Shown: positions 12,896 through 53,338 of the stretch, in pieces
Numbering within the stretch: position 1 is the first letter of the stretch
How the letters are laid out: every line of letters begins with the position of its first letter
Translations under genes and position numbers: made by a program
From: an archaeon
GTDB lineage: Archaea > Nanobdellota > Nanobdellia > Pacearchaeales > GW2011-AR1
Direction of reading: 5' to 3'
NCBI GenBank assembly: GCA_021107855.1
Contig: JAIORZ010000011.1
Span: forward strand, 263,686 to 327,685
Length of the DNA: 64,000 nucleotides
The notes under the pieces: model-generated
Database searches by the model: none
Seen by the model: the letters and a program-made list of their open reading frames with translations, nothing else
Told to the model about the DNA's origin: nothing

Positions 12896-14206
12896 ATGCC
12901 GTTTGATTTAATTGTTGGGAGGAATGCGAGTGATAAGAAGGATTTTGGTGAGAGGGGTCTTGCGTTTTTGGGGAAGAGTTTTGTGACGATGGGGAACTAT
13001 ACGAGTTTGTCGAATCCGATTTATATGGATGTTGCGCGGAGTCATGTTGTTTTGGTTTCTGGGAAGAGGGGAAGTGGGAAGAGTTATACGTTGGGTGTTA
13101 TGGCTGAGGCTTTGGGTGATTTGGGAGCTGAGGAGTCGGGGAATATTGCGTCGGTTATTTTTGATACTATGGGAATTTATTGGACGATGAAATATAAGAA
13201 TGCGAAGGACGAGGAGTTGTTGGATGAGTGGGGGCTGGGTTCTAAGAATGTTAATGTTAAGGTTTTCGCGCCGTTTGGTTATTATCAGGAGTTTAAAGAT
13301 AAGGGGGTTGATGTTGATGCGGAGTTTGCGATTAAGATTTCGGAACTTGAGGCTAGTGATTGGGTGAGTTTGTTTGAATTGCGGTTTACGGACCCTGTTG
13401 CGGTTTTGATTGAGTCGGTGATTGGGCAGTTGAGGGAGGAGGGTGGGGGTTTTGGGTTTAAGGAGATTTATGATTTGATTGAGAGGGTGAAGAATGTTTC
13501 TCCTGATGTGAAGAATGCGGTGATTGCGCTTTTTGATGCGGCGAAGACTTGGAAGGTTTTTGATGAGGCGAAGGGGACGACTGTTCGGGCTTTGATTGAG
13601 TCTGGTGTGACGACGGTTATTGATTTGTCGATGTATGCTTCTCTCGGGGCTTTTAATGTTCGGGCTTTGATTATTGGGTTGGTTTCGAAGAAGATTTTTA
13701 ATGAGAGAATGGCGGCTCGGAAGTTGGAGGAGATTTCGGCGGTTCAGCATGGGGCGGATTATGCTCGGTATCGGGTGAAGAGGGAGATGCCCTTGGTTTG
13801 GATTTTTATTGACGAGGCGCATGAGTTTTTGCCACATGAGTCGGTTGGGAAGACGCCGGCGACGGATGCTTTGGTTCAGTTGCTTCGGGAGGGGCGGCAG
13901 CCTGGTGTTTCTATGGTTTTGGCTACACAACAGCCGGGGAAGATTCATAGTGATGTGATGACGCAGAGTGATATTGTGGTTTCGCATAGGGTGACGGCTC
14001 GGTTGGATGTTAATGCTTTGAATGATGTGACGCAGAGTTATATGAAGAGTGATATTTCGGCGAAGTTGAATGGGTTGCCGCATTTGAAAGGGAGTGCGAT
14101 TATTTTGGATGATAATTCGGAGAGGATTTATCCGATGAGAGTTCGTCCGCGGTTCACATGGCATGGCGGAGAAGCTCCAATGGCCATTAAAAAGTCTGAT
14201 TTTTAG
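12896..14206 (+). CDS. HerA/DUF87-family ATPase
   Basis: 436 aa from the TATA-supported ATG at 12896. Walker A GKRGSGKS is at about residues 52-59 and Walker B WIFIDEAHEFLP at about 300-310; an ATQQPGKIHSD sensor-like motif and a conserved SDIVVSHRVTARLD segment follow. This is the hexameric HerA-FtsK superfamily. HerA proteins pump DNA or drive translocation, for example with NurA in end resection. No NurA gene is adjacent; instead the neighbours are pilus-like and secreted genes, so a DNA-translocation or envelope role cannot be separated from sequence. The stop codon lies inside hairpin C. Confidence 0.85.
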   Translation: MPFDLIVGRNASDKKDFGERGLAFLGKSFVTMGNYTSLSNPIYMDVARSHVVLVSGKRGSGKSYTLGVMAEALGDLGAEESGNIASVIFDTMGIYWTMKYKNAKDEELLDEWGLGSKNVNVKVFAPFGYYQEFKDKGVDVDAEFAIKISELEASDWVSLFELRFTDPVAVLIESVIGQLREEGGGFGFKEIYDLIERVKNVSPDVKNAVIALFDAAKTWKVFDEAKGTTVRALIESGVTTVIDLSMYASLGAFNVRALIIGLVSKKIFNERMAARKLEEISAVQHGADYARYRVKREMPLVWIFIDEAHEFLPHESVGKTPATDALVQLLREGRQPGVSMVLATQQPGKIHSDVMTQSDIVVSHRVTARLDVNALNDVTQSYMKSDISAKLNGLPHLKGSAIILDDNSERIYPMRVRPRFTWHGGEAPMAIKKSDF

Positions 14207-34334: not shown

Positions 34335-35945
34335 TCATTTCTTAGTTATGTCCAAAAAGGGTAAATCAAAAAAACTACTCGGCTCTTTATTGTCCCCATT
34401 ATTTAAGGAAAAAAACACTTTTCCTCTAGATCTAGTTATAGCAACATAAAAAAGTCTTAAATTCTCCAAGTTTTTACTTACAGTACTCGCGTCGTAATTT
34501 AATACCCCTTTATTCATATTAATAATAAAAAGATTATCCCACTCAAGGCCTTTAGATTTATGAACAGTTATTAAAACAATTTTATCAGTAACACAATCAA
34601 CAAATTTAATCAAATCATTTTTTTTAAAAACTTCTTCCAAAAAATCATTTCTTTCTGAATAATAAACTCTTTTCATAAGATAGTTTTCTATAAAAGAATT
34701 AAGCAAATGAATATAATTTTTTTCATAAGGGTAGTTTTTCAATTGATACTTATCTTTAAAATATTTTGCAAAAAACCTCAAGTTATTCCGATGAGGATAT
34801 TTATCTAAAAAATCATGGAATATGTTTAATGACGCTTCGTTAAAACTAAAATAATTATCTTTATTATTTCCATCTTCAAATAATGCATTAAAAAACACAC
34901 TTTCATTTAATTTATTTGCAACTCCTCCGGTTCGATTGCCAACGAGTATAGCACAAGTTTTGTCGACCTTAAAATACTTTTTTGATTCATCAATAATGAA
35001 CTTAGACTCTTCAAAATCGGAATCAAAGACATTAAGGTCTATTTTTACCTCATGATTAAATTTCCCGGTTCGATAATAAGTTCTCAAATAAATTTCTAAA
35101 TATTTTAAAGATTCGTCGTTTAGCCTATGGGACTTTTTTAATTTAAGATAATTCTCCGGAAAATCTTTGCAATATTTTTCAACCAATTCGGGATTCGACC
35201 CACTAAATTCGAAAATTGTTTGTAATGAGTCTCCGAAGAGATAGCGATCCGATTTTCTTTTATTAATAGACTCTATAATTTTATTAACAAGAAAATTGGT
35301 ATCCTGGAATTCATCAATAAATATATTTTCGTAGTAATGATTGTAAAAACTTCTAACAGATTTAAAATCTCCGAACAATTTAAGCAATAGGAGAATTGGT
35401 CCAAAATAAGGAAGTGTTTTTTGGTCACAGCTTTTTATTAATGCAGGATAAACATCATTAAAATTATGGTCAAATTCTTGCTCCTGTCTTTTTTTGATAT
35501 AATTTTCAAGACCATTAAATAAAGGGTTTCCAAGAGAATTTGTTTGAACAAAATCAAACTTGTAAATATCCTTTAAATTTGGATGAATCAAATAACCGTA
35601 TTTACTCAAAATTTTTTTAGATAATGAATGGAAATTAACAATATGTATCTTACCCCTAAAAAAACGTTTCTCATTAGAAGATAACTCTAATTTATCAAGA
35701 TAAATGTTTAGATCATTTTTCAACCTAGAAACCCCGTTATTTGTATATGTTACAATTAAGGTTCTCCTATAATCATTACTATTTTTTTGAGAAATAATAT
35801 AGAGACATTTTAATAAAAGAGTTCTTGTCTTACCATATCCCGCAGGAGCCTCGACTAATAATGGATTTTTATCAGACTGTATAGCTTTCTTTTGTGACTC
35901 ATCTCCTTCACAAAAATCAATGATCTTATTCTGTATTTGGTTCAT
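34335..35945 (-). CDS. gajB: Gabija protein GajB, UvrD-like helicase
   Basis: 536 aa. Superfamily 1 motifs: Walker A APAGYGKT (33-40), DEFQDTN (about 211), GDSLQTIFEFSGS, TVHKSKGLEWDNLFI and LRLFYVAITRSRGKVFFS. The OLD-family gene upstream overlaps it by 20 bp in the order of gajA-gajB. In Gabija, GajA is a nucleotide-sensing nuclease complex that GajB joins and activates when phage depletes nucleotides. Motifs are complete, so it looks active. A weak 3' inverted repeat follows the stop. Confidence 0.83.
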   Translation of the reverse strand: MNQIQNKIIDFCEGDESQKKAIQSDKNPLLVEAPAGYGKTRTLLLKCLYIISQKNSNDYRRTLIVTYTNNGVSRLKNDLNIYLDKLELSSNEKRFFRGKIHIVNFHSLSKKILSKYGYLIHPNLKDIYKFDFVQTNSLGNPLFNGLENYIKKRQEQEFDHNFNDVYPALIKSCDQKTLPYFGPILLLLKLFGDFKSVRSFYNHYYENIFIDEFQDTNFLVNKIIESINKRKSDRYLFGDSLQTIFEFSGSNPELVEKYCKDFPENYLKLKKSHRLNDESLKYLEIYLRTYYRTGKFNHEVKIDLNVFDSDFEESKFIIDESKKYFKVDKTCAILVGNRTGGVANKLNESVFFNALFEDGNNKDNYFSFNEASLNIFHDFLDKYPHRNNLRFFAKYFKDKYQLKNYPYEKNYIHLLNSFIENYLMKRVYYSERNDFLEEVFKKNDLIKFVDCVTDKIVLITVHKSKGLEWDNLFIINMNKGVLNYDASTVSKNLENLRLFYVAITRSRGKVFFSLNNGDNKEPSSFFDLPFLDITKK

Positions 35946-37608
35946 TTTCTTCTACCTTTAACATAATTTTATCCATTACTCTATCAAAACAAGGAGGAAC
36001 CACATTCAAACATTCAGCACATTTAAATCTAAAAACTCTATCTTTATGACTTTCTAACTTTCTTAATATTACCTCATCTGAAATTTCGGAAGTTGTACCA
36101 TTCTCCACTTGATTGATTTGCTTTGTGAAAATAAGATTTTCTTTTGCTTTTACCATAAAATAAGTTTTATCCAATACGCCCATAAATTCTTCTTCAAAGT
36201 CTTTTCTGTCTGTACAATAAATATCGTCCGATACTAGTGCACTTACCTGCTCAGCAGAAAGATTATCCCTATCTCTTATACCAATGGAGGGTATTCCAAA
36301 TTTATTACATAATTCTTTTATTTTCGAGATATTGTCGCAAGAACCAGCAGGCAGAATAGAGATCCCAAGATCATCTAAATCCTTACCCTTTTTATTAAAA
36401 AAGGACATTAGAGATCCTATTTCTGTATCTCCCTCGCATATTATCAATCCTTTGCAAAAAAAAGCTTCTTTAAACTCTTTTATATGTTGCAGATAATGTT
36501 TTAGCTCCTTCTCTTCAGATATATCTATATTTTCCCCAGAAACTATTTTTAATTCTCCTCTCGATCTATAAAAACGGGTAATTTGTTTATACTTATCTGA
36601 AAGAATATCTGCAGAATGAGTAGCTACAAAAATTTGCCTGTCCAATGATTTTATATCAAAAAGATCAGAAACTAAATCTTTGAACTTATTATCCGTTGAA
36701 TCTTCCTTAAATTTAAAAGCTTTAAGTAAATATTTAATAAAACATCTCTGCTGATAATTATGTAAATGAACTTCTGGCTCATCAATTGCAATAATACTAT
36801 TAAAATTAGATATAGGAATTCTATTTTGTTTTTGAATTTTGAGTAATTTGTACAATATTGCTAATTCCAGATAGAGGAGAGATTTTAACCCCTGTCCAGA
36901 CATCTCTAAACCTATACCAGTAGACTCTTTTAATGAAAAGAGATTGCATATGAGATTTTCCAAATCCTCAAAACCAACGCAAACCTGATGTTTATTCGAG
37001 ATATATAGCTTAGAAAAATGGTTATTAACTTTTGCTAGGAGACTCTTAAGTTCATCAAACTCTTTTATTCCTCCTAGTTCCGCTATGAGTTTAGACTTAT
37101 CCCCAGAATTCATGCATTTTTCAAGCAGTCTTCCAAGAGAACCATCAACGCCATATTTTCTAATAAATTTAAGATGGGTATTTTTGTTTCCAGTAGAATC
37201 GATATAGAAAAGATTGAATTTTTTTAGATCAAATCTCTTAATTTGAGCATCCGTATCAATACAGCTAATAATAGTCTCTTCGTCTAAATTTTGAGTTATT
37301 CGCAAGCCCACAGTAATTGATTTTCCTTCCTCCTCAGGAGAAAAATTATCCTCAAATATACCCAATTCTTCATTGCTATCCAACTTCAACTTCAACTTAA
37401 TTATAATTTCTTTTTCCGAATTATAAAAATCCTCGTCATTAAACAGAGATAAAGAATTAGAATTGAAAATTTTATCAAATAATTTTAGTATATTCGATTT
37501 ACCTAGATTATTCTCACCAATAATAAAATTTATCTCATCATTGAATTTAAATGTAGCCTCTTTTTCAAAATTTCTATAATTTTCTAAAGATAATTTAACT
37601 ATTTTCAT
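35926..37608 (-). CDS. gajA: Gabija protein GajA, OLD-family ATPase with TOPRIM nuclease
   Basis: 560 aa, close to the usual length of about 580. The ABC-type ATPase has Walker A GENNLGKSN (31-39), a signature-like EMSGQGLKSLLYLE, Walker B IIAIDEPEVHLHN and the switch FVATHSADIL. The TOPRIM domain has the catalytic Glu in IICEGDTEIGS (about 389) and the D-x-D in GIRDRDN (about 448). The final segment has Cys pairs (CAEC...). It is the nuclease half of Gabija and directly precedes gajB. Confidence 0.85.
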   Translation of the reverse strand: MKIVKLSLENYRNFEKEATFKFNDEINFIIGENNLGKSNILKLFDKIFNSNSLSLFNDEDFYNSEKEIIIKLKLKLDSNEELGIFEDNFSPEEEGKSITVGLRITQNLDEETIISCIDTDAQIKRFDLKKFNLFYIDSTGNKNTHLKFIRKYGVDGSLGRLLEKCMNSGDKSKLIAELGGIKEFDELKSLLAKVNNHFSKLYISNKHQVCVGFEDLENLICNLFSLKESTGIGLEMSGQGLKSLLYLELAILYKLLKIQKQNRIPISNFNSIIAIDEPEVHLHNYQQRCFIKYLLKAFKFKEDSTDNKFKDLVSDLFDIKSLDRQIFVATHSADILSDKYKQITRFYRSRGELKIVSGENIDISEEKELKHYLQHIKEFKEAFFCKGLIICEGDTEIGSLMSFFNKKGKDLDDLGISILPAGSCDNISKIKELCNKFGIPSIGIRDRDNLSAEQVSALVSDDIYCTDRKDFEEEFMGVLDKTYFMVKAKENLIFTKQINQVENGTTSEISDEVILRKLESHKDRVFRFKCAECLNVVPPCFDRVMDKIMLKVEENEPNTE

Positions 37609-43523: not shown

Positions 43524-45881
43524 TCAAAAGAACTTATCCAAAAATTCAAATTCCTTCCCTGAATCTTCATAATTATAGGTATCTTTTGAATTAATTTTCC
43601 ATATATTGGAAAATTCAACTACTATTCCTCCAATAAGAGTTTTGTTTTTTTGTTTTTTAATCCACTCTTGTAATGCTTCCGCTTTCCATTTCGTTTCATT
43701 CTCACTTGCGGTTTTCCCCTTCTTGGTATCAACTATCAAGGTAATTCCATTCTTTAATTTGATAATCCAATCTGGGTAAAATAGTCGTTCCCTATGTTTA
43801 TTATGATCATAGTAAGGTATCGCGAAATAATCACTACCTTCATCTCCATTCTTATGCCACCACTCAACATTATCCTTACCTTCAAGATATTTAATGAATC
43901 TTGTTTCATTTATCTTTCCAAGGTATTCTTTTTGTAAATAAAAGGGCTTCATTGAGCATCTATTTACACCTTTCTTAATTTCCTCGTAATCTTCATTATA
44001 TTCTAAAATCTCATTTGGAATATCCAAGAGTGTAGTTCCTTTGGATCTTGATGCCTTTTGATGAACTTCCTCTTCTCGTATTGGTCTATATTTTAGAAGA
44101 GCATCGCTGATAATTTTAACCAATTCACTATCTAATTTGAGTAAATCCTTAACTATTAACTTGTAATAGTTGTCTCTGTCTTCTTTTGACGCCTTTTTGA
44201 TCCAGACGTTTAATGCAGTTTTTAATTTCCCCCATGATCTTGCAGGTGCAAATCTTCTCTTTTCATCTTCTTGTTTTGCAAGAATATCAAAACATCTCAT
44301 ATTGTATGTCCTAATTAAATCATTCTTTGAAGTTTCTCTGTTTAAATCTGTTCCATGATCAACCAATTCTTGAATAAAATTATCAAAGTTTTCAATTTCT
44401 GCATCAACAATCATATTGTTATCTATATTTAATGAATCAAAAGACAGTCCTTTCTGCTCTAATTTTTTCTTTACTACCGCTGGAGAATCCCCTTTTTCGA
44501 TTTCAAAATGTTTATTCGCAATTTTTTCAAAAATATTTTGGAAGGAATCTCCAAGGTCATTATAATTAGGTCTACTCATGTAAGTGGATTCCAGTTTTAT
44601 TGGAGTAATTCCCTTTTTTCTCTTACTTGTATAGATAAATGGCTTATTTGTACCTAATTTGCCCCAGTTTTCTCTGACCTGATTTCTTTCATAATTGGTA
44701 TAAAGGTATGCTTTGTTTAGTTCTTGCTCTGAATAAAATCTTGCCTCAGGCATTCTTAAAACTCTTCCAACAGTTTGGGTATGAAATACTGGATTTCTTA
44801 TTTCTCTAAACATAACTAAGATGGAGGCTCTAGGGCAATCCCATCCTGTTGCGGCCGCTTGTTTAAATATTAAGAAATCAACTTCTGAATCATTCTCTTC
44901 AATATCTTCTAAATTCTCTTTTGGTCCCGCTAACCAAATAGCAACTTTGTGACCAGGAACCCCCTTCTCTCTTAAGTAGTTCTTCACTAATTCCATTTTT
45001 GTTTGATCTAGGGTTTCCTTTGTGGAAATATCATCATTAGGCAATTGTATTAATGCAAGAGGATTTATGTCTAGTTCAAAATCTTTATATTTTTTCAAAA
45101 GCTCTTCTCTTTTATTGTATGCTAAATCCAAGAGCAATATATCCTGATCAATTTCTTTTTTCTTTACATTCTCTAAATCCTCTTTGGTTTGAGTTATTAT
45201 TTTTTCTTTGATTAATTCTGCTTCAACCACATCCTCTCTTGTTACATTAACGAATCCTTTTGTTTTCATTTGTATTTCTAATGCATTTGGAATTGCTTTC
45301 GGAGTGGCAGTTACTTTAAGAATAATTTTTGGATCAATTAAGTTAATTAACTCATCTGCAAGGTTTGTATCAGTGTCTCTGTGGGCCTCATCAACAATTA
45401 ATATTATTTCTCTTCCATCTTTTTGGGTTTTTTTGATTAATTCATCAAATTGCCCGTCATCTCCTTCGGTATATTCTGTAGGGTTTCTTAGTTTTCTGCC
45501 TTCTTTTGTGGATGATTTCAGTTTCTGCCAATTTATAAAAAAAATATTATTTTTTTCGAGTTTCTTTTTATTCGCCAAATCTATTAAATCCAACAAATTA
45601 AGCTCTCCTGCGCCACCATAGTAATTTAATAATTTATTTTTGCTTTGTAAATAAGAAGGTTCATTAAAACTAAACCACAAAAAACATTTATCTGCATCAA
45701 ATTGAGGATCTCCAGTAAGGTCTCTTAAAAATTGGGCCATCATAATTGTTTTCCCTGATCCGGTGGGAGATTTTAAGATTAACTCTGTTTTTCTGTTGTT
45801 GGATTTCCAAAGCGTAAGAAATTGATTTCTTAATTCTGCAATTGCATTCTCTTGAAATGGTTTGAGTATTATCTTGCTCAT
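43524..45881 (-). CDS. res: type III restriction enzyme, Res subunit
   Basis: 785 aa. Walker A SPTGSGKT (38-45), DEAH in IVDEAHRDTDTN (about 165), KVTATP, and lobe-2 motif AAATGWDCPRA...VGRVLRMPEA. The C-terminal nuclease shows PDWIIKL (about 702) and the D-x-K of IVDTKKGKT (about 715). It translocates and cuts DNA with the Mod subunit when target sites are unmethylated. It overlaps mod by 4 bp. It ends the eight-gene minus-strand run, and a convergent gap of 121 bp separates it from the VirB4 gene. Confidence 0.92.
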   Translation of the reverse strand: MSKIILKPFQENAIAELRNQFLTLWKSNNRKTELILKSPTGSGKTIMMAQFLRDLTGDPQFDADKCFLWFSFNEPSYLQSKNKLLNYYGGAGELNLLDLIDLANKKKLEKNNIFFINWQKLKSSTKEGRKLRNPTEYTEGDDGQFDELIKKTQKDGREIILIVDEAHRDTDTNLADELINLIDPKIILKVTATPKAIPNALEIQMKTKGFVNVTREDVVEAELIKEKIITQTKEDLENVKKKEIDQDILLLDLAYNKREELLKKYKDFELDINPLALIQLPNDDISTKETLDQTKMELVKNYLREKGVPGHKVAIWLAGPKENLEDIEENDSEVDFLIFKQAAATGWDCPRASILVMFREIRNPVFHTQTVGRVLRMPEARFYSEQELNKAYLYTNYERNQVRENWGKLGTNKPFIYTSKRKKGITPIKLESTYMSRPNYNDLGDSFQNIFEKIANKHFEIEKGDSPAVVKKKLEQKGLSFDSLNIDNNMIVDAEIENFDNFIQELVDHGTDLNRETSKNDLIRTYNMRCFDILAKQEDEKRRFAPARSWGKLKTALNVWIKKASKEDRDNYYKLIVKDLLKLDSELVKIISDALLKYRPIREEEVHQKASRSKGTTLLDIPNEILEYNEDYEEIKKGVNRCSMKPFYLQKEYLGKINETRFIKYLEGKDNVEWWHKNGDEGSDYFAIPYYDHNKHRERLFYPDWIIKLKNGITLIVDTKKGKTASENETKWKAEALQEWIKKQKNKTLIGGIVVEFSNIWKINSKDTYNYEDSGKEFEFLDKFF

Positions 45882-47569
45882 AAATTTGCCACCTCTTTAT
45901 AAACATCAATTAGGGGTTCAGGGATATCTTTAACTTTAATTTTTTTGTATTCTGCAAATTCATTTACATATTCATTCTTTCCCCAACTAAAAATATAGAG
46001 GTTTATTTTTTTACCCATCTTGTCTAATTTCTCAACTAACTTTTGTAGCTTACCCTTATCCTCTTTAAAATATATTGCGGTAACCTCTTTCTCATTTGAA
46101 AAAATCTGCCACCAATCATCCCTTTCAACTTCTTCAAAAGTTTCCTCTCTAACTGCAATCATCTCTCCGGCCCTACGGGTTAATTCAAGTTTATCTTGAT
46201 CTGTTGCATTATCAAGGTTTTCTGTTTCTACAAAATTGGTTTTATAATATCTAAGATTCCCTCCAAACCCCTCAATCTTATTTTTATTATTGTCAGAGTA
46301 GCCTTTTATGACCTTTTTCAAACGGGGATAGCAAATATTCTCTGCAATTTTATTACCCTGATTATTATTGTCTTCGTTGTTGGTACATAGAATAAATTTT
46401 CTATTTCCACCATCTTCTTTGTTGAGGTCCATTACGGCATGCCCGGTTGTCCCACTTCCTGCAAAAAAGTCCAGGACAGTAATATTATCCTTGCCATTCC
46501 CACTAGATATATCAAGAAGTTTTTTTATTAATTTCGTAGGTTTTGGAAACTTAAAAACATTGTCCCCTAAAATCGAGTTAATTTCTTTAGTCCCATCTTG
46601 GGTATATACGTCATCAATTATAGAAAATGGCTTTGTTCTTCTGGTTACTCCAGTCTCATCTTTTAAATACTGTTTGAATCTTATGGACCACTTAGCAGAT
46701 TTATTTTTTTTAAAGTCTAATTCTCCCTTTTCGAGCGCATTCTCTACCCTTTCCTTGCCCCATACCCACTGTCTTTTTGGCATGATTTCTGAGCCGTCAG
46801 GTGCTTGAACTGGATAAACTAGATTTGGACGGGGGTCCATAGACTTGCCTGCTTCTAGTGGCTGTGTCCTATAGCCACCTCTTAGCTCATAATTTTCATC
46901 TTTATTCTTAAAATATTTATCAATAAATTCAGGGCTTGTTTTAATGCTAAATTCTTGGAGGGACTTTTTGTCTTTTGCATATACAAAAATGTATTCATGT
47001 ATTGCGGCGTGATATTTTTCTTTTGCTCCCTGATATCTTTTTTTCCAAACAATTGAATCTACAAAATTATCTTCTCCGAAGATTTCATCACATAAAAGCT
47101 TTAATTGAGCAAATTCATGATCATCTATACTAATAAAAATTACTCCTGTTTTTCGAAGTAATCTTTTCCCAAGTTTCAATCTTTTTTCTATAAAATTTAA
47201 CCATTTACTGTGTCTCCAACGATCTTCCGCGTCAATCCATATATCATTATATTTCCACTCCTTAGAATTTCCAGTATTATATGGGGGATCAATATAAATC
47301 ACGTCAATTTTTTCTTTATGAGTATAACTTAAGGCAGAAAGAGAGTGGTAATTATCTCCCTCAATTATGAAGTTATTGGGTTCATCCACTTCTCCTTTTA
47401 TTTTTCTTTTCTTATCCTCACTAAAAATAGGTAAATTTTTTCTACAATCCAAAACAACTTTTTCTGGCTCCTTTTCGGCATCCCAAACCAGGCCATACTT
47501 TTTCCTCTGTTTTAATTTTTCTATTTCTCTTATTAGATCTTCTTTAGATGCTTTGTCATAATCTTTCAT
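45878..47569 (-). CDS. mod: type III modification methyltransferase, Mod subunit
   Basis: 563 aa. Motif IV IDPPYNTG (about 93-100) precedes SAM motif I DFFAGSGTTGHAVMDLN (about 368-384); the first 30 residues are a Lys-rich helix. The N6-adenine beta class and length fit type III Mod. The central region (about 190-330) would carry target recognition. It overlaps the EVE gene upstream and res downstream by 4 bp each. Confidence 0.93.
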   Translation of the reverse strand: MKDYDKASKEDLIREIEKLKQRKKYGLVWDAEKEPEKVVLDCRKNLPIFSEDKKRKIKGEVDEPNNFIIEGDNYHSLSALSYTHKEKIDVIYIDPPYNTGNSKEWKYNDIWIDAEDRWRHSKWLNFIEKRLKLGKRLLRKTGVIFISIDDHEFAQLKLLCDEIFGEDNFVDSIVWKKRYQGAKEKYHAAIHEYIFVYAKDKKSLQEFSIKTSPEFIDKYFKNKDENYELRGGYRTQPLEAGKSMDPRPNLVYPVQAPDGSEIMPKRQWVWGKERVENALEKGELDFKKNKSAKWSIRFKQYLKDETGVTRRTKPFSIIDDVYTQDGTKEINSILGDNVFKFPKPTKLIKKLLDISSGNGKDNITVLDFFAGSGTTGHAVMDLNKEDGGNRKFILCTNNEDNNNQGNKIAENICYPRLKKVIKGYSDNNKNKIEGFGGNLRYYKTNFVETENLDNATDQDKLELTRRAGEMIAVREETFEEVERDDWWQIFSNEKEVTAIYFKEDKGKLQKLVEKLDKMGKKINLYIFSWGKNEYVNEFAEYKKIKVKDIPEPLIDVYKEVANL

Positions 47570-47973
47570 TTTTTCTCCGAGCGTTTTTTTAATAAATTAT
47601 AATCTTTTTTAGTTATTTCTACACCAGATTTTCCCATTAATACGCCCCCCCAACTTTTTTTATCTTTAAATATTGAAATTCTGTCTACCAAATCCCTCGT
47701 AAACTCAAGAGGTTTATCTGGGAGATTGCTTTCGCTTAGTTTTACTTTAAATCCGTAATATCTCCCTTCAAATTTTAAATTAGAATCGATATTAATATCT
47801 GTAATTTTAAAAAATCCGACTATTTTCTTTGGAATAAGGTATAGTGCCACCAAATCCCCTTCCCTTATTTTTTTTGCGATTTTTGTAGATTTATCACTAA
47901 ATCCATAAATTTCATGTTTGATTATAGTTGGGAATGTGTCTTTACTCGCAATTAGAATCCAAAATTTATTCAT
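47566..47973 (-). CDS. EVE-domain protein (PUA-like modified-base reader)
   Basis: 135 aa. WILIASKDTF at the start, a YGF motif, REGDLVALYLIP and IVGFFKITDI match the EVE/PUA-like fold that flips out and binds modified bases such as 5-methylcytosine. EVE genes commonly sit beside restriction systems. It is translated between DUF2779 and Mod with 4-bp overlaps, so it probably works with this RM operon. The base it reads is unknown. Confidence 0.72.
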   Translation of the reverse strand: MNKFWILIASKDTFPTIIKHEIYGFSDKSTKIAKKIREGDLVALYLIPKKIVGFFKITDINIDSNLKFEGRYYGFKVKLSESNLPDKPLEFTRDLVDRISIFKDKKSWGGVLMGKSGVEITKKDYNLLKKRSEKK

Positions 47974-49442
47974 TTTATTTTATTTTTTAGCCCTTTAATT
48001 ATTTCAACTTCTGCGAGTGTATCAAGCTCACAATATCTTTCCAGAGCTCTCCTCGCTTTTAACCTTTCTGCTTCCTCAACATCACCGTAAGTCATTCTTT
48101 CATATTTCAAACTAGCCAAGGCGCCATCCTTAATATCCATCTTGTCATAACTTAGATCACTCAAAACGGGTAAAACATATTTTATCGAAGTAGACCCTTC
48201 CTGCTTAGGATCATAATAACTGAAGTCCTTGAATACATCCCAAAGGTCTTTTATCCTTGTAAAAATATTCTCATCATACCACTCTCTAAACTCTGGCAAG
48301 GCCCCAGAGCATTCATTCATAACACCCTTCTCAAATCCCTGATTATAAACCAAAATACTTCCCTTTTCTCCAAGGTTATCTTTTAGAGATTGCATAAATT
48401 TAGGCCGTGGGTCACTCATCCCCTCAGCCAAAAACGAAACATGCCTCAACTCTCCACTTTCCTCCTCCTGAACATGCAACGAAAACTGAAACGGAATTCT
48501 TTGATAGGGTCTCATTCCATCAAATTTCGGAATCGCCGGATTAATCGTTTCAAAATCTAAATAATAAACAGGATACTTCAAACTCTCAAGAAAATTCTTA
48601 ACCTGCAACTTATTAATATGCTTTCCGCCATCAAACGCCAATCGACGCTGTATTTGTTGTTTATCATTCAATTTCACATTCTCAGGAACATCATTCAACT
48701 TAACAATTCCAGAATCATATAACTCAAAAGTCTTCTTCTTCAACATCCTATAAAAATCAAACACACTGTCTTCAGGCACATCTTTCCAACATTCATCCTT
48801 TATAGGACAATCATAAGGATTTGAACAATTAAACCCAATTTTACAATTAGGCTCCTCCCTGGAATTAATAATTTTAGACATTTCCTCAATCCTAAATTCA
48901 AGCCCTTCAGAAAATTCCTCGACCTTTTCACTAATTTCCGTCTGCACAAACAACTCCGAAGGCTCAATCTCCCCATCACGAACATACTGATTATTAATAT
49001 GCATCAAAAAACATTTCCGAATCTTCAGCCCAGCTTTCTCATAGACATACTTCTGAAAAGCGACGTCATGCAGATTCGTCTCCTTGACCCTAGTCGCACT
49101 CTTAACCTCAACGATATCCCACTCATCCTCACCAACCGGCACCAAAACATCCGCCCTAGAATACAAACTATCAATCATAAAAGCTGGCTCAAATAAAGGA
49201 ATTCTTTTACTAATTAATTTTTTAGTATTTCTTAAATTTTCCATAAAATTATCGTCAGGGATATCCTGCCCCTCGGGAAAAACTTTCGTCGCCAACTCTC
49301 CAAGAATATGCCCATCAGAAAATTTCTTTAATGTAATCTCGTCATGCTCTGGAAGTCTTTGTTTGTCATTTTTTGTTACCCATAGAAGTTTTGGGCATTG
49401 TAGACCTAGAAGGTAGTTGGATTTTGTTAGGAGTTTTGCCAT
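47970..49442 (-). CDS. DUF2779 protein with Cas4-like and RNase H-like domains
   Basis: 490 aa from the ATG at 49442. An N-terminal PD-(D/E)XK domain has DVLVPVGEDEWDIVEVKSATRVKE, and cysteines at CPKLLW (residue about 17) plus CKIGFNCSNPYDCPIKDECW (C at about 203-221) probably hold an Fe-S cluster, as in Cas4. The C-terminal DUF2779 domain has YYLDFETINPAIPKF and a YCELDTLAEVE segment, i.e. an RNase H-like exonuclease active site. No cas genes or CRISPR array are present, so a CRISPR role is unlikely. It heads the EVE-Mod-Res series. Confidence 0.75.
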   Translation of the reverse strand: MAKLLTKSNYLLGLQCPKLLWVTKNDKQRLPEHDEITLKKFSDGHILGELATKVFPEGQDIPDDNFMENLRNTKKLISKRIPLFEPAFMIDSLYSRADVLVPVGEDEWDIVEVKSATRVKETNLHDVAFQKYVYEKAGLKIRKCFLMHINNQYVRDGEIEPSELFVQTEISEKVEEFSEGLEFRIEEMSKIINSREEPNCKIGFNCSNPYDCPIKDECWKDVPEDSVFDFYRMLKKKTFELYDSGIVKLNDVPENVKLNDKQQIQRRLAFDGGKHINKLQVKNFLESLKYPVYYLDFETINPAIPKFDGMRPYQRIPFQFSLHVQEEESGELRHVSFLAEGMSDPRPKFMQSLKDNLGEKGSILVYNQGFEKGVMNECSGALPEFREWYDENIFTRIKDLWDVFKDFSYYDPKQEGSTSIKYVLPVLSDLSYDKMDIKDGALASLKYERMTYGDVEEAERLKARRALERYCELDTLAEVEIIKGLKNKIK

Positions 49443-49477
49443 AATTATCGCAAGGAGCAAGAGCTTATAAAATTACT

Positions 49478-49888
49478 CTAACTTTCTCCAAAAATCCTAT
49501 TCAGTTTATCTTCAAGCTCTCTATCCCCATCAAACTCAAAAACCTCATCCGCAATTCCTTTCAATAAAAATCCCCTACAATCTTCTTTCGAAGCAACAAT
49601 CAACTTCTTCCCAAGTCCCTTCATATAACCACTCTCAATCAAGAGCCCCTCACCCTTCTCCGCACTCTCCAATACAACCAAGATAACATCGGATTTCTTC
49701 ATCTCAATCCTAGCCCTCTCCATAACTTCCTCAGGTTTCATTTCCCCAGGCTTCCAGTCCTGTACATCTCTAATAAAAATAAAGCTCTTATGCCCAAGTT
49801 TTTCAATTATTTTAGATATCTTCTCAAGCCTCAACCTAAGTTTCTCAACATTCGTCCCGCTCAACTTATACGCTACATAAATTCTCAT
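49478..49888 (-). CDS. nucleoside 2-deoxyribosyltransferase-like protein
   Basis: 136 aa. The Rossmann-like fold opens with RIYVAYKLSG; SDVILVVLESAEKGEGLLIESGYMKGLGKKLIV carries the Glu expected as nucleophile (ESGY). The family cleaves or transfers deoxyribose on nucleosides or nucleotides (NDT, DNPH1, DUF4406). It overlaps the B12-radical SAM gene by 4 bp. It may generate or recycle a modified base. Substrate unknown. Confidence 0.65.
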   Translation of the reverse strand: MRIYVAYKLSGTNVEKLRLRLEKISKIIEKLGHKSFIFIRDVQDWKPGEMKPEEVMERARIEMKKSDVILVVLESAEKGEGLLIESGYMKGLGKKLIVASKEDCRGFLLKGIADEVFEFDGDRELEDKLNRIFGES

Positions 49889-51132
49889 CCTTTTCTCCTA
49901 CTAAATCTACGGTAAGCACTAATTATATATTCATCTAATTTTTCTGGCGACACACCATTCAAAGACGAATTATTCATAACATGATATTTCACATAGGGAG
50001 CATCTATTTTCGACTGAGCATAATCGTCTAACTCTTCTCTAGAATATCCAGCTTCTTCAAGATTTTTATACAACCGAGTCCCAGGGAAAGCTCGAACAAC
50101 CATAAATCTCGCATCGTCTGGATTAAGATCCATAGCAAAATCAATAGTATCCTCAATCTCTTTTTCAGTTTCATTAGGATGTCCAACGGTGAAAAATGCT
50201 TTGGTCTCAACCCCCAATTTACGACACGAATCGAAAATAGATTTAGTTTTCTTAATATCAGAACTTTTTCCAATGTACTCCAAAACACTAGGTGTTGCGG
50301 ACTCAACCCCAATAGCGATTCTATAACATCCAGAATCTTTCATTCTGCTCAAGAGATTTTCATCCAAATTTTCAATCCTACAAAGTGCCCTCCAAGAAGG
50401 ATTCGCATCACTCTGACTCAATGCTTCCGTAAAAGAGATTACTCTATCTTTACTGAAATTAAATAAATCGTCAGTAAAATGGATACTTTTAACTCCCTTG
50501 GTAGATAAATTTTCAATTTCCCCAACAACATTCTCAATTGACCTTGCACGCATTTTTCTTCCGCCAATTGTAGGGACAGAACAATAAACACAATTAAAAG
50601 AGCACCCTCTAGAGGAATTTATCGACGCTTCTCTCTCCCCGTTGTCTGAAGAGTAGGGATCATTTACAAAAAACTTACGATTAACATATGGTAATGAATC
50701 AAGGTTTTGCACAAGTCCCGCATTTATGATCCCCATAGGTCTCTCTCTTAAAATCTTTGGAAATATTTTATCAGCCTCTCCTTTAACAACTGTATAACTC
50801 CCCTGCAATTCCTCTCCCCTAAGTGTGGCATGAGGTCCCCCAACCAATTTATAATTCCCAGAAGAATTTTCCAAAATATCCAAGGCAAGCCGATGATTAG
50901 TAGAAAAAATATTTATCCCAACGATATCCGGATTCAAATTGTCAATTCTTTTTACAACTTCACTAGGACTCAACTTCTCAGCCTCCGCATCAACAATTTC
51001 AACATCATACCCTTCTCTCGAAGCAACCGTCGCTAAATATCCAAGACCAAGAGGAGCTGTAGTAAAATAATTTGGCTTATTTTTTTCCGAATACTCTTGC
51101 ATTGGGCTATTAATTAAAACGAGATCTTTCAT
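49885..51132 (-). CDS. B12-binding domain radical SAM enzyme
   Basis: 415 aa. The N-terminal cobalamin-type domain has PLGLGYLATVASREGYDVEIVDAE and DIVGINIFS...LVGGPHATLRGEE. The radical SAM barrel has the CxxxCxxC of SSRGCSFNCVYCSVPTIGG (Cys at about 178, 182, 185), then a FTVGHPNET loop typical of BchE-like members. Such enzymes methylate, cyclise or rearrange unreactive carbons. It lies within the four-gene overlap series, so it likely acts on the same pathway as the TyrRS-like protein. Confidence 0.87.
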   Translation of the reverse strand: MKDLVLINSPMQEYSEKNKPNYFTTAPLGLGYLATVASREGYDVEIVDAEAEKLSPSEVVKRIDNLNPDIVGINIFSTNHRLALDILENSSGNYKLVGGPHATLRGEELQGSYTVVKGEADKIFPKILRERPMGIINAGLVQNLDSLPYVNRKFFVNDPYSSDNGEREASINSSRGCSFNCVYCSVPTIGGRKMRARSIENVVGEIENLSTKGVKSIHFTDDLFNFSKDRVISFTEALSQSDANPSWRALCRIENLDENLLSRMKDSGCYRIAIGVESATPSVLEYIGKSSDIKKTKSIFDSCRKLGVETKAFFTVGHPNETEKEIEDTIDFAMDLNPDDARFMVVRAFPGTRLYKNLEEAGYSREELDDYAQSKIDAPYVKYHVMNNSSLNGVSPEKLDEYIISAYRRFSRRKG

Positions 51133-52274
51133 CTTCCAATACTCCCCAGATTTAAAACTACATGTTCAATGGCTCTCTTCGGCTTTTTGTCTGCTGTCAA
51201 TAAACCCATATTTCTTAACTGGGTAATATAAGTCGAAACAGTACTCAATTTTAAACTAGATTTTTTAGAAATATCCAAGATTGAATTTGCTCCATCACAA
51301 TTCTTCAAAATAATTAGCTTAATATCATTCAATGGCTTAATCATCTTCCCGAATTCCTCAGGACCATCGATAAACCGACTTTTCATTTCGTCAGCAACGT
51401 TTATTTTACTAACAATTTTTTTTAGTTTATCAAAATATGAATAAAGACTTTGTGACACTACTTCCACAAACTCAAAATAATCCAAATCAGAAATCATCGT
51501 CTCGGCCTTACTTCTCCCCACCTTTCTATTTTCTAAAACGACCTTATCTAGAATAGAAAACAAGACATCAAATAATTCAGAAATTTCCTTTTCGTTAGGC
51601 TTGGTATTATTATAATGAGATTCTACTATTCTCTGAATACTATCTTTAGACATCTCCGAAGAAGGAATAACACGATCTTTCTTATGAATTATCACAGGAA
51701 CTCCAGTAACGTAAATACTCTTCGGGGGACTATATCTAGATTTCAATTTTAAAATATGATCCATATCTCCTTTAAAAATTTTGAATCTTTCAGAAGTTAA
51801 ATAATGAGTCGGCTGTCCACCACACACTTCTGGAAAAAGTTCTGGAAGAAATGTCGCCGCTAAATAATCCATGATAATATAATTTATTCGAGATAAACTA
51901 ATATCTCCGAATGGGATATACCTAAGAGAAAACCCTTTTCTTATTTTCTCAATATCAATAATCGACAAAGAATTATGATACAAATTCGTTATCTCTCTAT
52001 TCCTAAAGGCTCTTGACCAAAGCTCGGATAGGTATATCAATTTATAATTCAAACCAAGATACTTCATCAAAGCTTCAATCATCCGAACATTAGATTTTAA
52101 TTTTTCTTGCCTAGACTTCTCGCTAGAGGAATTAAGTATACGACTTTCAAGAACAAAGAGATCCCACACGCAGAGATAAACTTTTTGTGGCTTCTGTTTC
52201 TTTAAATAAAAAATATGATTAAAGTTTGTATATGCATTTGTCGTTGGGCTAATATTTGTATATATTATTTTCAT
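51129..52274 (-). CDS. TyrRS/TrpRS-like (class I aminoacyl-tRNA synthetase-like) protein with C-terminal winged helix
   Basis: 381 aa. The order of features follows the TyrRS catalytic domain: strand IIYTNIS, PTTNAYTNFNHIFYL at the HIGH position (only the second His, H20, remains), strand KVYLCVWDLFVLES, helix NVRMIEALMKYLGLNYKLIYLSELW, IMDYLAATFLPELFPEVCGGQ (139-154 area; GGQ as in TyrRS) and PSSEMSKD (204-211) at the KMSKS position. The anticodon-binding domain is replaced by a helical region and a winged HTH (about 310-370). It may adenylate or transfer an amino acid in a small-molecule or nucleotide pathway. Assignment is by eye and needs a structural check. Confidence 0.5.
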   Translation of the reverse strand: MKIIYTNISPTTNAYTNFNHIFYLKKQKPQKVYLCVWDLFVLESRILNSSSEKSRQEKLKSNVRMIEALMKYLGLNYKLIYLSELWSRAFRNREITNLYHNSLSIIDIEKIRKGFSLRYIPFGDISLSRINYIIMDYLAATFLPELFPEVCGGQPTHYLTSERFKIFKGDMDHILKLKSRYSPPKSIYVTGVPVIIHKKDRVIPSSEMSKDSIQRIVESHYNNTKPNEKEISELFDVLFSILDKVVLENRKVGRSKAETMISDLDYFEFVEVVSQSLYSYFDKLKKIVSKINVADEMKSRFIDGPEEFGKMIKPLNDIKLIILKNCDGANSILDISKKSSLKLSTVSTYITQLRNMGLLTADKKPKRAIEHVVLNLGSIGR

Positions 52275-52915
52275 TGCAAAACCTCCACAACTTCCGCTAA
52301 AGATTTCGCAAGAAAATTTTCCATTCTAACACCTTCCGCTCCCTTTACCTCCACCTCATCGTGAGATACAAATAAACTAGTTTCAGGGATACTTCCAGCC
52401 TTCTTCATCGCAATATTATAAATTTCAGGATGAGGTTTTCTAACTCCCACGTCGCCAGATAAAGTAAATGTTTTAAAAAATCCAAGCATATCATATTCAA
52501 CTAATTCTGTGTAGAGGGAATCATGAGGAATATTAGAGATTATATGTAAGTTTCTTTTCTTAGCCAACACAGGAAGCATTTCAGAAGTCGTCTCCATAGG
52601 ACAATAATCATGATCATTTAGTTTGTATATGTCAACTAATCTAGGAATGAGTTTTTTATCTAAACCAAGTATATCAGTAATATCTCTAATAATTTTATTC
52701 ATTGACCATTCGGAGTTATTTCTTTTTCTTGCTTGTAGATATGTTCCGATAGTTTGGTCATGAGCTTTTTTAAGATTATTTTTGTCTATGGTATACCCTT
52801 CAGATTCAACATAGTCAATAGTAAGTCCATGTGCTCTAGAGAGAGTTTCATTATTAAATTTATGATAAAATATCAATTCCCCATAATCTAGGAAGAGGTC
52901 CTTATTTTTTGCCAT
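52271..52915 (-). CDS. HAD-superfamily hydrolase
   Basis: 214 aa from the ATG at 52915 (a TTG at 52921 is in frame). Motif I LFLDYGELI has the nucleophile Asp with Gly at the +2 position, as in the DFGG/DYGG subgroup; motif II is IISNIPHD, motif III Lys is in GVRKPHPEIY, and motif IV is the HDEVEVKGAEGVRM region. The cap between motifs I and II is helical. Likely a phosphatase on a small metabolite. It is the first gene of the four-gene series and overlaps the next by 4 bp. Confidence 0.8.
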   Translation of the reverse strand: MAKNKDLFLDYGELIFYHKFNNETLSRAHGLTIDYVESEGYTIDKNNLKKAHDQTIGTYLQARKRNNSEWSMNKIIRDITDILGLDKKLIPRLVDIYKLNDHDYCPMETTSEMLPVLAKKRNLHIISNIPHDSLYTELVEYDMLGFFKTFTLSGDVGVRKPHPEIYNIAMKKAGSIPETSLFVSHDEVEVKGAEGVRMENFLAKSLAEVVEVLQ

Positions 52916-53071
52916 TGTCAATTTATCAAGAACTCTTTTCCCCTTGGGATAAAGTTATATGTTTTCTTTCTTTTTAAGGATTTGTATATTTTTATATATT
53001 TATGAACTTAGCATATATATAATTGTGAATCTTAATCCTAGTAAGAAAAGGGGAGGTGATAAAAATCGCAA

Positions 53072-53338
53072 ATGAAAAAAACCACACTCACCCCCAGAAC
53101 AAAAATAAATAGTGAAGGAAAAATTTTCTACAGTGAAAGTGCACAGGCATGGAATATTTTAAAATTTAAAAAGGAATTATTTTCTGAGTTTCCGCAGTTG
53201 AAGGAGAAACGATCCAAATTTTCTTATAAATTAACTTATTATAGAAATTCGGAAGAGCTGGAAAAAGAAATAGGGGTATTGGCGAAAAAGAGGAATCAGG
53301 TAATGCCGGTGTTGTTGTTTTTGTATAAGGAAGATTAA
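53072..53338 (+). CDS. small basic protein, 88 aa
   Basis: No family recognised. Lys/Glu-rich, soluble. A strong Shine-Dalgarno GGGAGGTGAT at 53051-53060 lies 11 nt before the ATG, and A/T-rich TATA sequence (CATATATATAA near 53017) precedes it. It is transcribed away from the HAD operon, sharing the 150-bp gap 52922-53071. Confidence 0.5.
   Translation: MKKTTLTPRTKINSEGKIFYSESAQAWNILKFKKELFSEFPQLKEKRSKFSYKLTYYRNSEELEKEIGVLAKKRNQVMPVLLFLYKED

Follow-up and report, generated by a model that had tools for sequence, protein, structure and literature searches.

Four minus-strand genes that lie between positions 52915 and 49478 of a 64,000-nucleotide stretch of an archaeal genome (the window; contig JAIORZ010000011.1 of assembly GCA_021107855.1, Pacearchaeales) form an operon encoding, in transcriptional order, a HAD-superfamily hydrolase, a synthetase-like protein (P0003), a B12-type radical SAM enzyme and an NDT-like protein. 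P0003 has the fold of a tyrosyl- or tryptophanyl-tRNA synthetase (TyrRS, TrpRS), has lost the motifs on which synthetase activity depends and carries an additional winged helix at its C-terminus. We propose, as a reading that we hold to be almost evenly balanced between right and wrong, that P0003 senses a ligand with its class I synthetase fold and regulates transcription of a nucleotide-linked small-molecule module. As such it would probably be a novel type of switch, acting on a pathway by which an unusual nucleotide-like molecule is made or altered.

The operon is neither a chance arrangement nor an artefact of gene prediction, because all of its genes, together with a divergent 88-aa gene (p88), are under purifying selection (pN/pS 0.26-0.38 against the orthologues in genome G008) and because the gene order recurs elsewhere. 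A first-pass annotation made from the DNA letters had described four genes joined by 4-bp overlaps, and all four open reading frames (ORFs) and the three overlaps (ATGA, at 52271-52274, 51129-51132 and 49885-49888) are indeed present. That annotation had made its pathway idea depend on co-occurrence of the set in other genomes, and at least five further DPANN genomes share the order. It is seen in G008, G021, G001 and contig L019, in G066 with one extra ORF inserted, and in G069, where it is interrupted by the end of the contig. In locus L012 the synthetase-like gene is separated from the radical SAM gene by an additional 183-aa ORF with no Pfam match (13409-13960). Contig L019 (JAIPGS010000062.1) carries the label Candidatus Babeliales bacterium; a bacterial host was rejected as the flanking genes look archaeal, and the contig is probably misbinned. 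No sign of spread by phage, virus or plasmid was seen: P0003 had no match in viral contigs and phages, and a distant relative had none in plasmids.

The synthetase-like protein P0003

Comparison of P0003 with Pfam and NCBIfam gave weak helix-turn-helix (HTH) matches alone, all located at the C-terminus. The fold was established by other means. An AlphaFold model (pLDDT 87.2, pTM 0.80) was compared with the PDB using Foldseek, and nearly all of the 50 matches listed were Tyr/TrpRSs, including engineered TyrRSs of M. jannaschii, with E values among them of 4e-9 to 1.3e-7 and TM scores by target of about 0.5 to 0.58. A family of 22 members was drawn together from whole genomes across this archaeal class, and a 19-member profile of it matched the TyrRS/TrpRS genes of these archaea in hhalign with 88% probability over 274 columns (93% in a first run), compared with no more than 0.24% for control profiles that were reversed or had their columns shuffled. 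The probability fell to 77% when all 22 members were used (alignment A7), and the closest seven members alone (A1) gave no match to the Tyr/TrpRS profiles; the hhalign signal is dependent on a diverse family alignment. The model, the Foldseek matches and the hhalign result against its controls therefore confirm the class Ic fold of P0003, in agreement with the TyrRS-like assignment first made by eye. The host genome also encodes its own separate TyrRS and TrpRS, and a literature search found no paper on the P0003 family. Among the Tyr/TrpRS-type genes of these genomes, a tandem of three PF00579 genes was seen in G066 (L095, L108 and L123; G066:C6:21630-24817), a genome that has five in all.

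The Rossmann catalytic fold of the Tyr/TrpRSs and the helical region that follows it can both be aligned with P0003, over about 300 columns, but the motifs of catalysis cannot. A HIGH-type motif (HxG[HYQFAT]) is present in none of the 22 family members, whereas 11 of 17 neighbouring Tyr/TrpRSs have an HxG-type motif; GGxDQ is not kept. KMSKS is likewise absent from all 22, compared with its presence in 15 of the 17, and its loop is deleted in the alignment, where hhalign places KKMSSSTEASKISLIDSPETIRKKV of the host TyrRS opposite KK-------DRVIPSSEMSKDSIQRIV of P0003. The first-pass annotation had taken an SSEMSK stretch to be the KMSKS motif of a synthetase. This was mistaken: the stretch aligns with the DSPEEI helix start that comes after KMSKS, the model has a helix at 210-221, and the lysine is not conserved among the family variants (EMSPESI, EMSVETI, TMSLRDI, EMNLEEI). 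The idea that P0003 is a class I synthetase whose KMSKS still works was rejected on these grounds. With both HIGH and KMSKS missing from every family member, attachment of a group by aminoacyl-adenylate chemistry, as had been suggested, is unlikely and regulation is the better reading.

In place of the lost motifs the family has a different set of conserved residues. Five residues do not vary (Y15, W37, D38, S83 and R88), D136 shows 95% conservation, and T or S occupies position 12 throughout. Judging from TyrRS, several of these residues are probably turned towards the amino-acid pocket. The anticodon domain had been thought to be replaced by a winged helix; the winged helix is present, but the anticodon-type helical domain of TyrRS is alignable in P0003 and has not been cleanly replaced, the winged helix being added after it. 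The winged helix is of the positively charged kind expected of a DNA-binding regulator, with a net positive charge in all 21 members that reach this region.

Features of the operon and its promoter region (window coordinates)
Feature	Position	Strand	Evidence
HAD-superfamily hydrolase, gene 1, 214 aa from ATG 52915	52271..52915	-	PF13419 4.5e-11, alignment, PDB relatives PH0459 and YihX
Class Ic aminoacyl-tRNA-synthetase-fold protein with C-terminal winged helix, gene 2, 381 aa, P0003	51129..52274	-	AlphaFold, Foldseek, hhalign, 22-member family
P0003 residues 9-18, HIGH position; HxGH absent, T/S12 and invariant Y15 in its place	52221..52250	-	alignments
P0003 residues 207-211 (EMSKD), helix start following the KMSKS site of TyrRS	51642..51656	-	hhalign, model helix, K not conserved
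P0003 winged helix-turn-helix, residues 315-374	51153..51332	-	HTH matches, model, family charge
B12-binding-domain radical SAM enzyme, gene 3, 415 aa, P0002	49885..51132	-	PF04055 3e-26, PF02310 2.3e-15
Nucleoside monophosphate (NMP) N-glycosidase/NDT-fold protein, gene 4, 136 aa, P0001	49478..49888	-	PF05014 3.8e-7, PDB relatives, alignment
Conserved divergent promoter region	52916..53071	.	invariant columns against shuffles
Putative operator repeat 1, TTCACAATTATATA	53016..53029	-	conservation and genome pattern search
Putative operator repeat 2, TTCATAAATATATA, 23 bp from repeat 1	52993..53006	-	conservation and genome pattern search
Divergent 88-aa gene (p88), head-to-head with the operon in 7/7 close loci	53072..53338	+	locus comparison

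Promoter region and partner enzymes

Further evidence for a regulatory role came from the region between the 88-aa and HAD genes. Across six genomes this region has 47 invariant columns, compared with at most 10 in shuffles, and a mean identity of 69% against 45%. Between G000 and G008 it is 80% identical, while synonymous sites are near saturation. The region carries TTCACAATTATAT and TTCATAAATATAT, 23 bp apart, and the paired TTCACANNTATAT repeat is conserved in the promoters of the sister operons. The 936-kb host assembly has a single exact TTCACANNTATAT, at repeat 1, and inspection by eye found none upstream of stand-alone p88 copies. In other families a different conserved block lies upstream of the synthetase-like gene, also at L057, where there is no adjacent AsnC-type gene. 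This block, around TAAGTTTTTA...TTTGACAA...CATAAA-TTTA, was observed at L056 (8319-8506), L057, L058, L059 and L060, in three archaeal families. Promoter conservation of this kind fits what an autoregulator would leave behind, and the repeats are putative operators. A separate tandem repeat was seen at G000:C1:153418-153550, where CTCACATATATAT occurs four times at an exact spacing of 40 bp.

Of 128 genomes, 23 carry the 88-aa gene, frequently more than once, and its AlphaFold model is poor. It is doubtful as a dedicated part of the operon, since it is often multicopy and not specific to it.

The radical SAM protein has both a B12-binding domain and a CX3CX2C motif whose cysteines (C177, C181 and C184) are invariant, which places it by its domains in class B; its use of cobalamin is putative. 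Its solved relatives are AprD4, TsrM and OxsB. OxsB acts on a nucleotide. AprD4-like relatives may differ in their use of cobalamin. The protein shares its domains and the CX3CX2C motif with class B enzymes of the AprD4, OxsB and HpnJ types but scores far below every equivalog cut-off. In the HAD protein the nucleophile Asp of motif I is kept and the second Asp has become Gly (LDYGG or LDYGE). YihX, one of its PDB relatives, likewise has the nucleophile without the second Asp. The operon HAD belongs to family IA, in a group shared with YjjG-type nucleotidases.

For the last gene, the first-pass annotation had drawn a comparison with enzymes that cut deoxynucleosides. The NDT-fold family match holds, although it is barely over the cut-off, but the protein is closer to CMP/NMP N-glycosidases than to deoxyribosyltransferases: its nearest PDB relative is the CMP N-glycosidase 4jen (2.6e-10), followed by BlsM, MilB and DNPH1. 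It shares with MilB, BlsM and DNPH1 the fold and the nucleophile Glu of the ExG motif (the invariant E85, equivalent to E103 of MilB and E104 of DNPH1). The general-acid Asp of MilB (D78) and DNPH1 (D80), located eight residues ahead of a conserved Asp from the PDB-match alignment and a six-sequence family alignment (A3), is Ala or Thr in all six NDT-like sequences aligned and Ala59 in the operon protein. Ordinary hydrolysis by this protein is uncertain because the general acid appears to have been replaced.

Gene neighbourhoods of relatives

The synthetase-like gene is the constant member across the loci of its relatives, and the enzymes around it vary within a range of activities on nucleotide phosphates (Pfam provided the CYTH and thymidylate-kinase-like, or TMPK-like, identities). 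The HAD, synthetase-like, radical SAM and NDT-like set is that of the close loci; L053 has it too, but with another NDT-like protein. Elsewhere the adjoining genes are radical SAM and CYTH (L015, L057), the same two with a TMPK-like gene (L061, L062), MoaA-like radical SAM with CYTH and HAD (L124), or NDT-like, NUDIX and TMPK-like (L060). In L063 (4700-11200) and L064 (2721-9437) they are a MoaA-like radical SAM protein, an inosamine-phosphate/glycine-type amidinotransferase, a DegT/StrS-type sugar aminotransferase and a NUDIX protein, with TMPK-like genes in addition in L064; these two gene sets represent a possible DPANN small-molecule cluster. At L055, L056, L058 and L059 the synthetase-like gene is solitary or has an AsnC-type regulator as its sole neighbour. 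Among 20 genomes, an NDT-like gene lies near the synthetase-like gene in eight and a CYTH gene in five (within about 4 kb), where simple arithmetic for genomes of ~1 Mb gives a chance expectation below one for each; a TMPK-like gene is nearby in four. In G000, G008, G001 and G381 the sole B12-binding-domain gene found in the genome adjoins the synthetase-like gene. The nucleotide or small-molecule theme proposed from the window is thus supported by the CYTH, TMPK-like, NUDIX, HAD and NMP-glycosidase-like neighbours of relatives. At G048:C97:3438-4448, TMPK-like and NDT-like matches occur in what is apparently a single open frame of 388 aa, a possible fusion.

Sensor, enzyme or defence

The regulatory reading can be put together as follows. 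The operon would be a self-regulated accessory module acting on a nucleotide or a nucleotide-derived small molecule. P0003, derived from a Tyr/TrpRS-type class I synthetase, would no longer make aminoacyl-adenylate, because HIGH and KMSKS are gone. Its pocket would probably bind a pathway-related ligand through the new set of conserved residues, and the paired TTCACANNTATAT sites that overlap the divergent promoters would be recognised by the additional winged helix, so that expression of the operon would be controlled according to ligand, much as by BirA. The radical SAM enzyme would carry out the key chemistry, while the HAD and NMP-glycosidase-like proteins may process phosphorylated or glycosidic intermediates. 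Several points weigh against this proposal. The conserved promoter blocks hold TATA/BRE-like sequence and could be core promoter rather than operator, and the divergent promoter could be regulated by the 88-aa neighbour. Winged helices can bind tRNA or protein, and that of P0003 may do so; the strong conservation of the pocket could equally signify catalysis. The close loci are orthologous, so that the neighbourhood counts are not all independent.

It is on the pocket and the winged helix that a fairly unlikely alternative, P0003 as an enzyme, is built. The protein might take an aminoacyl group from aminoacyl-tRNA, in the manner of the tRNA-dependent cyclodipeptide synthases (CDPSs), which have a Tyr/TrpRS-like structure without HIGH or KMSKS, or it might join an amino acid onto a nucleotide intermediate, with the winged helix binding tRNA or a partner. 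The invariant pocket residues and the constant hydroxyl at position 12 would suit such a role, and Y132...D136 of P0003 matches the spacing of Y178...E182 in the CDPSs, residues that position the aminoacyl group (PMC4159871). When the CDPS nucleophile Ser37 and the Y178/E182 pair are traced through the P0003 family, the acid at 136 is conserved and T/S12 is always present, but neither Y132 nor S9, the candidate for the nucleophile, is conserved. The family matches a CDPS profile with 0.05% probability, equal to nulls, against 88% for the aminoacyl-tRNA synthetases, a comparison of limited weight as CDPSs against the synthetases are also null; P0003 as a CDPS was set aside for want of profile support. 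The DNA-binding type of the winged helix, which the CDPSs do not share, and the conserved operator-like region favour regulation.

The surroundings of the operon raise the improbable idea of an antiviral module, in which the radical SAM enzyme would make a toxic nucleotide analogue, as viperin does, and its partners would phosphorylate, process or sense it. The distribution of the operon is patchy, its surroundings in the window include a type III restriction-modification (RM) operon at a distance of 1.9 kb and Gabija-like genes at about 12 kb, and RM genes occur near relatives in G008, G381 and G520; RM and Gabija genes are, however, common. The partner kinases of G381 and G189 have matches to PDC-M51B, a PADLOC candidate, and to the viperin-associated VakA, and L061 and L062 resemble the PDC-M51 and pVip/VakA pairs in having a radical SAM gene with a thymidylate-kinase-like one, but the window operon has no kinase. 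Its radical SAM protein matches generic class B models (3.9e-39) far better than PDC-M51A (1.6e-14), and membership of PDC-M51 was rejected for P0002; the viperin-like matches of L063, L064 and L124 are outscored by MoaA, and these too were rejected as viperins. Very improbable, to our minds, is nucleotide sanitation or salvage, with the HAD and NMP-glycosidase proteins removing damaged nucleotides and the radical SAM protein repairing or recycling the product. The likeness of the NDT-like protein to CMP/NMP N-glycosidases and DNPH1 and the grouping of the HAD protein with YjjG-type nucleotidases are in line with it, but the catalytic Asp of the NDT-like family is replaced, and the radical SAM and synthetase-fold genes and the amidinotransferase and sugar-aminotransferase neighbours of relatives would be left unexplained.

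As for these nearby genes themselves, the Gabija-like pair is on the minus strand at 34335-37608 (GajB model E 4.3e-98, GajA model E 1.2e-107). Also on the minus strand, at 43524-49460, genes for a DUF2779/Cas4-like nuclease, a weakly matching EVE-domain protein and type III Mod and Res again show 4-bp overlaps. This set starts 17 bp past the operon and is possibly transcribed by read-through from it.

Returning to P0003 as a sensor, the nearest precedent is BirA, a biotin protein ligase and repressor in which a class II-related synthetase fold is joined to an N-terminal winged helix and which, as an active ligase, controls its own pathway. P0003 is proposed to do likewise, but its fold is of class I, its winged helix is C-terminal and its activity motifs are lost. 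Tentatively, and as something that we consider possible rather than probable, the P0003 family may be the class I counterpart of BirA in DPANN archaea: a synthetase fold turned DNA-binding sensor, serving as the constant switch of varied radical-SAM/nucleotide clusters that make nucleotide-derived molecules, possibly antiviral ones. To our knowledge, synthetase folds recruited as transcription sensors are known for class II (BirA) alone; if the proposal is true, class I synthetases have been so recruited as well. It would also suggest that some of the smallest archaeal genomes, from which hardly any biosynthetic clusters have been described, encode small-molecule or nucleotide pathways. In the four genomes whose sole B12-domain protein lies in the cluster, the module would explain the retention of B12-type chemistry.

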